64,000 bases of DNA from Acidobacteriota bacterium (GTDB lineage: Bacteria > Acidobacteriota > Terriglobia > UBA7540): contig JAKCCV010000009.1 of NCBI GenBank assembly GCA_021838785.1, positions 1 to 64,000 on the forward strand, read 5' to 3'. Below are positions 34,799 through 37,963 of this stretch, in pieces (the stretch's first letter is position 1; each line of letters starts with the position of its first letter). The position numbers and the translations under genes are program-made. The notes below the pieces were generated by a model that was not told the DNA's origin, searched no databases, and worked only from the letters and a program-made list of their open reading frames with translations.

Positions 34799-36232
34799 AT
34801 GGAATCGAGGCCAATAAAGGCTCTTCTCATTTCGACCTATGAGCTGGGGCGACAGCCGTTGGGCTTAGCCTCGCCACGGGCGTGGCTGACCCGAGCGGGA
34901 GCGTCGGTTACCTGCCTCGATCTTTCGCGCCAGCCTTTGCCCGAGCAAGCTGTGGCGTGCGCTGACTTCATTGCCTTTTACATTCCCATGCACACCGCCA
35001 CGCGGCTGGCGCTGGAGGTGTTGCCGCGCATTCGCAAGCTGAATCCCCGCGCCCACCTCTGCTTTTATGGCCTCTATGCGCCCGTCAACGAGGCGTATCT
35101 GCGCCGGCTGGGGGCGGAAATCATATTGGGCGGCGAGTTTGAAGCGGGCTTGCTCTCCGCGGTCGAGCGGTTGGCCGGCAGCGAACCCTCCCATCAGAGG
35201 GAGCCGGTGATTTCTCTTGCGCGTCAAGCCTTCCTGCCGCCAGACCGCCAAGACCTTCCGCCGCTTGCCCAATACGCCCGCCTGATTCATCCCGACGGCT
35301 CATCCCGCATCACCGGTTACACCGAGGCGAGTCGAGGCTGCAAGCATCTTTGCCGCCATTGTCCGATTGTGCCCGTCTATCACGGCGTGTTTCGAATCAT
35401 CCAGCCCGAGGTGGTGTTAGAAGATATCCGCCGGCAGGTCGCCGTCGGCGCCGAGCACATTACTTTTGGCGATCCCGATTTCTTTAATGGAATTCGTCAT
35501 GCCATCCGATTGGTCCAGTCGCTGCACCAGGAGTTCCCGGAACTAACTTACGACGTCACCATCAAAATCGAGCATTTGCTCCGCCATGCCGAACATCTTC
35601 GAACATTGCGCGAAACCGGCTGCGTGCTCATCACCAGCGCGGCCGAGTCCGTGGAGGATGAAGTTCTCCGCAAGCTTGCGAAAGGCCATACCTACGCCGA
35701 CTTTGCCGCCGCCGTGAGTCTGTGCCGAGAGGCCGGCTTGACGTTGGCACCGACCTTTGTGGCCTTCAGCCCATGGACCACCTTGGACGGTTACCGAACC
35801 TTGCTCGCGCGCCTCGCCGAGCTGGGTCTCATCGAGCAAGTGGCGCCCATTCAATTGGCGATTCGGCTGCTGATTCCTGCCGGTTCGCGCCTGTTGGAGC
35901 TTGAAGAGATTCGCAACGTCGTCGGGCCTTTCGATGAGTCTGCGCTCGTCTATCCGTGGGCGCATCCCGACCCGCGGGTGGACGCCTTGGGCCAGGAGGT
36001 GCTCGAGACCGTGCTCAGAGGAGTGGAGCGAAATCTCAGCCGAGGGGAGATTTTCGAGCAAGCGTGGCGGTGTGCCCATCGCGCCATCGGCCTCTTCGCG
36101 CCGCCCTTGCCCGACACCCGCGATCGCGTGGCGCTGGCCGCCGTCCCGTACTTAACCGAGCCGTGGTACTGCTGAGCGGAACCGACCGGGAGCCAGTTGG
36201 CTCCCTCACAACCAGCGGAAGCCCAGGTCTAA
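34799..36232 (+). CDS. Radical SAM selenoprotein with CUAEP tail (TGA at 36173-36175 read as selenocysteine)
   Basis: The product (477 residues by readthrough) has an N-terminal B12-binding-like domain (about 5-125) that lacks the D-x-H-x-x-G cobalamin motif, then a radical SAM core with CxxxCxxC at Cys181, Cys185 and Cys188 (EASRGCKHLCRHCP) and later radical SAM strands (AEHITFGDPDF, CVLITSAAESVEDEVLRKLAKGH). The ordinary frame ends at residue 458 after EPWYC at TGA. Beyond it the frame reads Ala-Glu-Pro-Thr and continues to TAA at 36230, 4 nt before the ATP-grasp start. Cys-Sec-Ala-Glu-Pro is the tail for which a family of radical SAM (seleno)proteins is named (CUAEP/CCAEP; recalled, not searched). 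A SECIS-type hairpin follows at 36188-36205. Substrate unknown. Confidence 0.85.
36188..36205 (+). promoter_or_regulatory. Candidate bacterial SECIS hairpin
   Basis: GGGAGCC (36188-36194), loop AGTT (36195-36198), GGCTCCC (36199-36205): a perfect 7-bp stem, 12 nt behind the TGA. The loop has a G at position two and starts 19 nt after TGA, within the 16-37 nt range and the G-in-loop rule of bacterial SECIS elements (known from bSECIS surveys). It lies inside the readthrough coding region, as bacterial SECIS elements do. Confidence 0.7.
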
Positions 36233-36236
36233 GCCG

Positions 36237-37565
36237 ATGACGCAGGTAAGAGAAGGAATCTCGTTCGGAGTCTCTGAGCGGCAGAAGCGCGGCAGCTTGC
36301 TGCTGCTCACCACCACCACCGGCTACCAAACCCGTCAATTTGTGGAAGCGGCCCAAAAGATCGGCGTGAGTGTGGTTTTGGGGTCGGATCGTTGTCATCG
36401 CTTGGCGGATCCCTGGCGCGATGGCGCGCTACCGCTCAAATTTGAAAATCCTGACGAATCGGCCGCCAAAATTGTGGACTTCGCCCGGGGCGTTCCCCTG
36501 GCGGGCATCGTGGCCCTGGGCGATTGCACGCCGCCGACCGCGGCTCGTGCCGCCCGCGCCCTAGGATTGCCGTTCCATTCGCCGCAAGCTGCCGACACCT
36601 GCCGGGACAAATACCTCTCTCGCCGCCGACTCGCCGAAGCCGGATTGAAGATTCCGGCTTTTATCCGATACCCAGGAGATGCCAACCCGCGCGACCTCCT
36701 GCCATCGGGTTCTCCGCCCGTCGGTTTCCCCTGCGTGCTGAAGCCGTTGGCGCTTTCGGCCAGCCGCGGAGTGATTCGCGCCAATAATCCCGAACAATTC
36801 ATCAGGGCGTTCGACCGCATCGGCAAGCTCCTTAGCTCGCCTGAAGTGCGGGTTTCACGGCAACCAGCGCACCGCTTTATCCAAGTTGAGGAATATATTG
36901 AGGGTGAAGAGTTCGCCATCGAGGCTGTGGTTGAGCACGGGCGGTTGCGGCTTTTGGCGATTTTTGACAAACCCGACCCGCTGGAGGGCCCCACCTTTGC
37001 AGAAACCATCTACGTGACCCCGTCGCATCTGAGCTTGGCCGCGCAGCAGAAGATAGCAGAAACGCTGGCGGGCGCCGTGCGGGTGCTCGGCCTCGACCAT
37101 GGTCCGGTTCACGCGGAAGTTCGGCTGAACGCGCGGGGCGTCTGGATCCTCGAAGTCGCGGCGCGGCCGATTGGCGGTCTTTGCGCCCGCGCCTTGCGCT
37201 TGCAGTCGCCAAAGTTCGGCCGCTCCCTGACGCTGGAAGAATTGCTCATCCGCCTGGCGCTCGACGAAGACGTTCACGACGCCGAGCGCGAAGCCGCCGC
37301 CGCCGGCGTGATGATGATTCCGGTGTTGGAAGAGGGAATTCTGGAACGCGTGGACGGAGTCGAGGAAGCCAAGCGCATTGCGGGAATCGAGGAAATCGTT
37401 CTCACCTCGCGCCCCGCCGACAAGCTGGTGCCGTGGCCGGAAGGCTCCAGCTATCCGGGGTTCATTTTTGCGCGCGGCGATTCACCGGAATTCGTTGAGC
37501 AGGCGCTTCGCCAGGCTCAGGCCCAACTTCGCTTCGTCGTAACGCCCGCCCTCGCGGTCATTTGA
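36237..37565 (+). CDS. ATP-grasp enzyme with LAL_C2-like C-terminus (amino-acid-ligase type)
   Basis: The 442-residue product has an N-terminal Rossmann-like domain (SLLLLTTTTGYQTRQFVEAAQ), an ATP-grasp core (FPCVLKPLALSASRGVI with the Lys of the ATP site, QVEEYIEGEEFAIEAVVEHG, and GPVHAEVRLNARGVWILEVAARPIGG with the metal-binding E-x-N/A), and a C-terminal segment (GVMMIPVLEEGILERVDGVEEA, then EGSSYPGFIFARG) like that of BacD/L-amino-acid ligases. It would join a carboxylate to an amine via an acyl phosphate. It starts 4 nt after the readthrough stop of the radical SAM gene, so the two form a unit. Substrates unknown. Confidence 0.85.
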   Translation: MTQVREGISFGVSERQKRGSLLLLTTTTGYQTRQFVEAAQKIGVSVVLGSDRCHRLADPWRDGALPLKFENPDESAAKIVDFARGVPLAGIVALGDCTPPTAARAARALGLPFHSPQAADTCRDKYLSRRRLAEAGLKIPAFIRYPGDANPRDLLPSGSPPVGFPCVLKPLALSASRGVIRANNPEQFIRAFDRIGKLLSSPEVRVSRQPAHRFIQVEEYIEGEEFAIEAVVEHGRLRLLAIFDKPDPLEGPTFAETIYVTPSHLSLAAQQKIAETLAGAVRVLGLDHGPVHAEVRLNARGVWILEVAARPIGGLCARALRLQSPKFGRSLTLEELLIRLALDEDVHDAEREAAAAGVMMIPVLEEGILERVDGVEEAKRIAGIEEIVLTSRPADKLVPWPEGSSYPGFIFARGDSPEFVEQALRQAQAQLRFVVTPALAVI

Positions 37566-37681: not shown

Positions 37682-37963
37682 TCAGCCTTTTTTCCGTTGG
37701 GGAACGTAACCGGGGGGAAGCGCGGCGCCCTCACCAAAGAAAAACTGCTCCATTTGGCTGGCGATCAGTTCTTGCGCCTCTTTGGTGGAAGGATTGAGGC
37801 GATACTCGTTAATAATCATCTTGAGGTGTTCGAGCCACAACTTCCAGGCTTCTTGCGAGACGTTTTGATAAATCCGCTCGCCCAGCTCGCCCGGCCAGGG
37901 AGGCTCCTCGAGCCCGGGAAGTTCCCGACCAAATTTCACGCATTGCACCATTCGCACAGCCAC
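37682..37963 (-). CDS. yggX: YggX family Fe(II) trafficking / oxidative-damage protection protein
   Basis: The 93-residue protein matches Ygg[37 protein letters not shown] and [28 protein letters not shown], with the conserved Cys near residue 8. YggX helps protect Fe-S proteins from oxidative damage; its exact chemistry is unsettled. The start GTG 37963 is supported by AGGGAGG six nucleotides upstream; ATG 37951 is inside it. A TATAAT (38044-38039) lies about 70 nt upstream. Confidence 0.9.

Follow-up and report, generated by a model that had tools for sequence, protein, structure and literature searches.

The TGA codon at position 36173 of the window, which is the whole 64,000-nucleotide stretch analysed here (contig JAKCCV010000009.1 of an Acidobacteriota bacterium), is almost certainly read as selenocysteine (Sec) within a radical SAM gene, as far as sequence evidence can tell. 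We hold with high confidence that the UGA of this gene, a member of the NCBI family NF040546 (rSAM_CUAEP), would be decoded by SelB and tRNA-Sec under the guidance of a hairpin, with SelA and SelD making the Sec-tRNA. The initial annotation had claimed an in-frame TGA, a CUAEP tail, termination at TAA 36230 and a 4-nt gap to the next gene, and all these coordinates are correct. The features considered are the following.

34799-36232, plus strand: predicted CUAEP-tail radical SAM selenoprotein gene, 477 amino acids with Sec as residue 459, stop codon TAA at 36230-36232 (NF040546, Pfam Radical_SAM).
34799-35188, plus strand: N-terminal Rossmann-like domain, about residues 1-130, with a cobalamin-binding-domain fold (AlphaFold, VIA-align).
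35339-35362, plus strand: CX3CX2C motif for the radical SAM [4Fe-4S] cluster (Cys181, Cys185 and Cys188), invariant in 33 homologues.
36158-36184, plus strand: tail motif E-P-W-Y-C-U-A-E-P (33 aligned homologues; tail in 128 loci).
36173-36175, plus strand: TGA as predicted Sec codon, residue 459 (homologue tails, tree and synonymous-codon test).
36173-36210, plus strand: predicted bacterial SECIS (bSECIS) element, 7-bp stem 36188-36194/36199-36205 and loop AGUU 36195-36198.
36237-37565, plus strand: ATP-grasp ligase of the L-amino-acid-ligase type, probable operon partner (Pfam ATP-grasp_4, LAL_C2, ATPgrasp_N).

The segment 36158-36184 reads GAG CCG TGG TAC TGC TGA GCG GAA CCG, that is E-P-W-Y-C-[TGA]-A-E-P. 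Readthrough of the TGA adds 19 residues, Sec followed by 18 others (AEPTGSQLAPSQPAEAQV), up to the TAA codon, so that the protein ends in EPWYC-U-AEPTGSQLAPSQPAEAQV, and only four nucleotides (GCCG) separate this TAA from the ATG at 36237 of the ATP-grasp gene. The CUAEP sequence occupies residues 458-462 and corresponds to the C-(U/C)-A-E-P tail by which the family is recognised. Among the 33 aligned homologues, E454, P455, W456, Y457, C458, C/U459, E461 and P462 are invariant and A460 is nearly so. TGA closes 24 of the 38 open reading frames of at least 200 amino acids in the window and is the commonest stop codon there; it is thus an ordinary stop in this DNA, the recoding at 36173 is local, and a reassigned genetic code was rejected on this ground.

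The existence of a family of radical SAM (seleno)proteins with such a tail, to which the initial annotation had pointed, is borne out by NF040546. In hmmscan searches (curated cut-off 500), the protein scored 614.4 bits when ended at the TGA, a value that rose to 634.5 bits once the tail was included, the alignment covering positions 2-467 of the 468 of the profile, and Radical_SAM was the only Pfam domain detected. The increase in score with the tail indicates that the frame is conserved past the TGA and that the Ala-Glu-Pro triplet is not there by chance. The full-length match, the same tail and the same alternation of Sec and Cys make the protein a member of NF040546, from which it does not differ in kind, and the stretch that follows the motif (TGSQLAPSQPAEAQV) varies among members. 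The family and its Sec form have thus already been named by NCBI, and what is new here is a further member. No paper naming NF040546, CUAEP or CCAEP as a family was found in the open-access literature searched, and a term search of a 2026 review that covers over 110 families of prokaryotic selenoproteins showed radical SAM rows for other families only (PMC13188914). Two of these, the TIGR04167 family and TrsS (NF045646), are likewise radical SAM proteins with Sec, but the families and their Sec motifs differ from the present one. Sec coding is secured here for a radical SAM family that NCBIfam names and that is undescribed in the open literature searched.

To this may be added the Thermomicrobium roseum member (L131:8947-10383), whose RefSeq coding sequence ends at the TGA although AEP comes next, so that the public protein lacks the predicted Sec tail. 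The expectation that automatic annotation would miss the tail holds in this one case, in which standard gene calling cuts a member off right before its key residue.

The occurrence of the tail in relatives was followed in 80 homologous loci fetched by a scan of the GTDB genome collection, from Acidobacteriota, Methylomirabilota, Chloroflexota, Tectimicrobiota, Latescibacterota, Pseudomonadota, Actinomycetota and other phyla. The tail C-[TGA/Cys]-[A/S]-E-P was present in all 80. When these were combined with loci from further Acidobacteriota genomes and one plasmid, 128 tails could be read, all of the form C-[TGA/Cys]-(A/S)-E-P, with TGA in 101 and Cys in 27 (22 TGC and 5 TGT); three further loci carried no tail within the stretch examined. 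Homologues thus do not all stop at this position, and the CCAEP or CUAEP continuation on which the initial annotation had made its reading depend is found in relatives. On a tree of 94 members, built without the tail and with two ArsL proteins as outgroups, the Sec/Cys label changed 13 times, at least 7 of these changes being forced by well-supported branches, a pattern that on these sequences is that of classic Sec/Cys exchange. With so many natural Cys forms, Sec and Cys can be compared directly within one radical SAM enzyme.

Regarding the capacity to insert Sec, the genome (3.42 Mb, 98.5% complete, 38 contigs) encodes one SelA (569.6 bits), one full-length SelB above the cut-off (352.4 bits), a tRNA-Sec (74.9 bits; called SeC with anticodon tca by ARAGORN) and a SelD (374.4 bits), so that the selA, selB, selC and selD genes, the absence of which would have spoken against Sec, are all present. 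It should be noted that selD (L018, G000 contig C36:63703-64629) is itself a selenoprotein gene, its own frame containing one TGA (AAGUAAK) at the UxxK site of selenophosphate synthetase. The association was also considered at the level of genomes, with the family cut-off and a selA threshold of E 1e-60, in 297 Acidobacteriota genomes, 48 of which have a family match above cut-off and 192 of which have selA. All 38 genomes with a TGA form carry selA, compared to 192 of 297 overall (hypergeometric 1.5e-8, a value that treats genomes as independent, which they are not), whereas selA is absent from 3 of the 8 genomes with a Cys form (Fisher p 0.004 versus TGA forms).

The hairpin of the window has a minimum free energy (MFE) of -17.2 kcal/mol (z -2.2), and its 7-bp stem begins 12 nt downstream of the UGA, with a UGA-to-loop spacing of 19 nt. 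The bSECIS model calls for an upper stem of 4-16 bp, a loop of 3-9 nt with a G in its first two positions, a distance of 16-37 nt between loop and UGA, and an MFE of at most -7.5 kcal/mol (PMC13188914), and the 7 bp, the AGUU loop, the 19 nt and the -17.2 kcal/mol lie within these limits. Real tails were then set against versions with synonymous codons randomised according to the codon usage of the gene concerned, for 96 distinct TGA forms and 27 Cys forms. In the TGA forms, 6.23 of the 7 stem positions were paired compared to 4.27 expected, and the mean MFE of the segment was -10.7 compared to -5.5 after randomisation. By contrast, 3.78 of 7 positions were paired in the Cys forms (3.45 expected), with a mean MFE of -3.4 (-3.8 randomised), and the hairpin was absent in most of them. 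The same result for pairing was obtained on a smaller set (Wilcoxon p about 2e-13 for TGA forms and 0.04 for Cys forms), in which the Gln codon that gives the loop G was CAG in 69 of 70 TGA forms versus 12 of 21 Cys forms. Pairing and stability beyond those of synonymous randomisation argue for an RNA element selected in addition to the protein, essentially only where the TGA is present. Rfam returned no match for the hairpin at the gathering score or with E-values up to 10, bacterial SECIS elements being too diverse for one model. A recognisable SECIS-like hairpin persists in two Chloroflexota Cys (TGT) forms (L041:1595-1640 and L053:9919-9964); this suggests a recent Sec-to-Cys conversion, of which these hairpins, going by their sequences, are probably relics.

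That translation really ends at TGA 36173, with the AEP after it a fossil or a chance occurrence, is extremely improbable since, even though TGA is the most frequent stop codon of the window, AEP is kept after it across phyla, Cys repeatedly substitutes for it, the hairpin is retained beyond protein constraint in TGA forms only and the genome possesses the complete Sec machinery.

The nearest characterised family to the CUAEP protein is ArsL, an enzyme in the biosynthesis of the arsenic antibiotic arsinothricin, with 30-35% identity across about 410 residues. ArsL transfers the 3-amino-3-carboxypropyl group of SAM to As(III) (PMC8552651). Its model (NF040542) was the second best in NCBIfam, with 278.3 bits by hmmscan, and an identity as ArsL was rejected since this score is below the curated cut-off of 450 and the RCCLKC tail is absent, the tail being WYCUAEP plus an extension. 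The two proteins have in common conserved core motifs, C-terminal vicinal thiols (CC or CU) and, on annotated plasmids, an ATP-grasp gene that is often nearby. The CUAEP protein differs from ArsL by some 50 residues inserted ahead of the tail, by Sec in place of Cys and by the lack of a surrounding ars operon. Indeed, phmmer searches with ArsM, ArsN, ArsQ, ArsH, ArsC, ArsB and ArsR from the plasmid clusters revealed no ars genes as regular neighbours, either in the homologous loci or in the flanks of the window, only scattered weak methyltransferase matches and one ArsC-like match being obtained. An arsenite methyltransferase gene (366 bits) is found elsewhere in the genome, far from the radical SAM gene (G000 contig C28:94234-95052, L135).

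Of 81 loci searched by tblastn, 57 have an ATP-grasp gene near the CUAEP gene, with Sec and Cys forms both represented, and in 41 of those 57 it lies immediately downstream on the same strand; none was found in 16 of the 81 loci despite adequate flanks. The best solved relative of the ATP-grasp protein of the window is the L-amino acid ligase BL00235 (PDB 3vot; E 2.4e-39, 138.7 bits over residues 59-434), with which, as with BacD, it shares a fold family, but it scores below every curated NCBIfam equivalog cut-off. Annotated ATP-grasp genes also adjoin RCCLKC-tail, ArsL-type genes on Priestia, Alicyclobacillus, Klebsiella and Pantoea plasmids (L132, L133, L137, L138 and L139), a hint that in those plasmid clusters amino acids of the arsinothricin type may go on to be built into peptides by ligation; no annotated ATP-grasp gene lies beside the Pseudomonas amygdali RCCLKC-tail gene. 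The top match of the Alicyclobacillus ATP-grasp protein in the genome is that of the window (78.5 bits, the next reaching 24.4). The CUAEP-associated and ArsL-associated ATP-grasp groups are 26-27% identical, and both score higher against the broader subfamily PRK02186, so that the shared ATP-grasp neighbour could be convergent.

The candidate reaction that we prefer is drawn by analogy with ArsL: the [4Fe-4S] cluster would cleave SAM, and a 3-amino-3-carboxypropyl group or related radical would be attached to a soft element, which could be arsenite or a different thiophilic centre. The Cys-Sec pair at the C-terminus would hold this element, a task that may fall to the CC of RCCLKC in ArsL, and the neighbouring ATP-grasp ligase would then join the amino acid so formed to another one. 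Such an ArsL-like transfer followed by peptide ligation is put forward tentatively, its probability being kept low because arsenic genes are lacking beside the pair and the identity between the two ATP-grasp groups is no more than 26-27%. Should the parallel hold, the product of this gene pair, common in soil bacteria, would be a metalloid amino acid or dipeptide yet to be characterised. The broader proposal, that the family is a Sec-using counterpart of ArsL which forms carbon-arsenic or other carbon-metalloid bonds and, together with ATP-grasp, yields a new class of metalloid dipeptides that occurs widely, in bacteria from many phyla living in soil and sediment, is rather doubtful.

About as likely as this ArsL-like pathway is a redox role of the Cys-Sec pair, which the initial annotation had offered as a guess. 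The tail would then act as a swinging selenenylsulfide, able during turnover to reduce the enzyme itself, a substrate or an intermediate, and the radical chemistry would not be ArsL-like. This is a serious possibility, if short of an even chance. The AlphaFold model, built with 33 sequences and with a mean pLDDT of 90.3, has values of about 75 for residues 451-460 and below 50 for residues 464-477, which would fit a mobile C-terminal tail, and the vicinal Cys-Sec at such an end recalls the C-terminal Cys-Sec reductases. Moreover, a redox-active Sec is presumed for most prokaryotic selenoproteins (PMC9312934). On the other hand, ArsL, the radical SAM relative with a CC tail, acts on arsenite, several other CU-motif selenoproteins are tied to metal or metalloid handling (PMC13188914), and no reductase partner gene is present among the commonest neighbour clusters. 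The kinship with ArsL makes the role of a soft-metal or metalloid ligand at least as plausible for the Cys-Sec pair as a redox role.

In the predicted structure, the architecture is a cobalamin-domain-like Rossmann fold, then the radical SAM barrel, then the vicinal Cys-Sec end. Residues 2-129 of this predicted fold align to cobalamin-binding domains with a Z of about 13 (VIA-align), and the nearest solved folds are AprD4 (Z 26.9), OxsB (25.7), MgmA (25.6) and TsrM (24.3). These folds, the N-terminal domain and the presence of B12-radical SAM models among the more distant NCBIfam matches would be compatible with a cobalamin-dependent radical SAM methyltransferase or ring-forming enzyme, in which the tail would serve as a lid or as a ligand of an auxiliary cluster or of cobalamin. 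We consider this unlikely, as the B12-radical SAM matches reach at most 48 bits compared to 278 for the ArsL family, and AprD4 illustrates that a protein of the same fold need not use B12.

Other genes recur near the CUAEP pair. A Fe(2+)-trafficking (YggX-type) gene is found at 37682-37963 on the minus strand of the window and in about 21 homologous loci, an aconitase gene in 19 loci and an NfuA-like Fe-S scaffold gene in 9. They possibly reflect local synteny or iron-sulfur supply, and were not accepted as functional partners since they resemble local synteny. A DUF169 (COG2043) gene lies downstream of the CUAEP gene in seven loci (L026, L032, L033, L037, L056, L062 and L070), in several of which it sits between the CUAEP and ATP-grasp genes, and one of them (L062) also carries a gene for a corrinoid protein-associated methyltransferase (CpaM).
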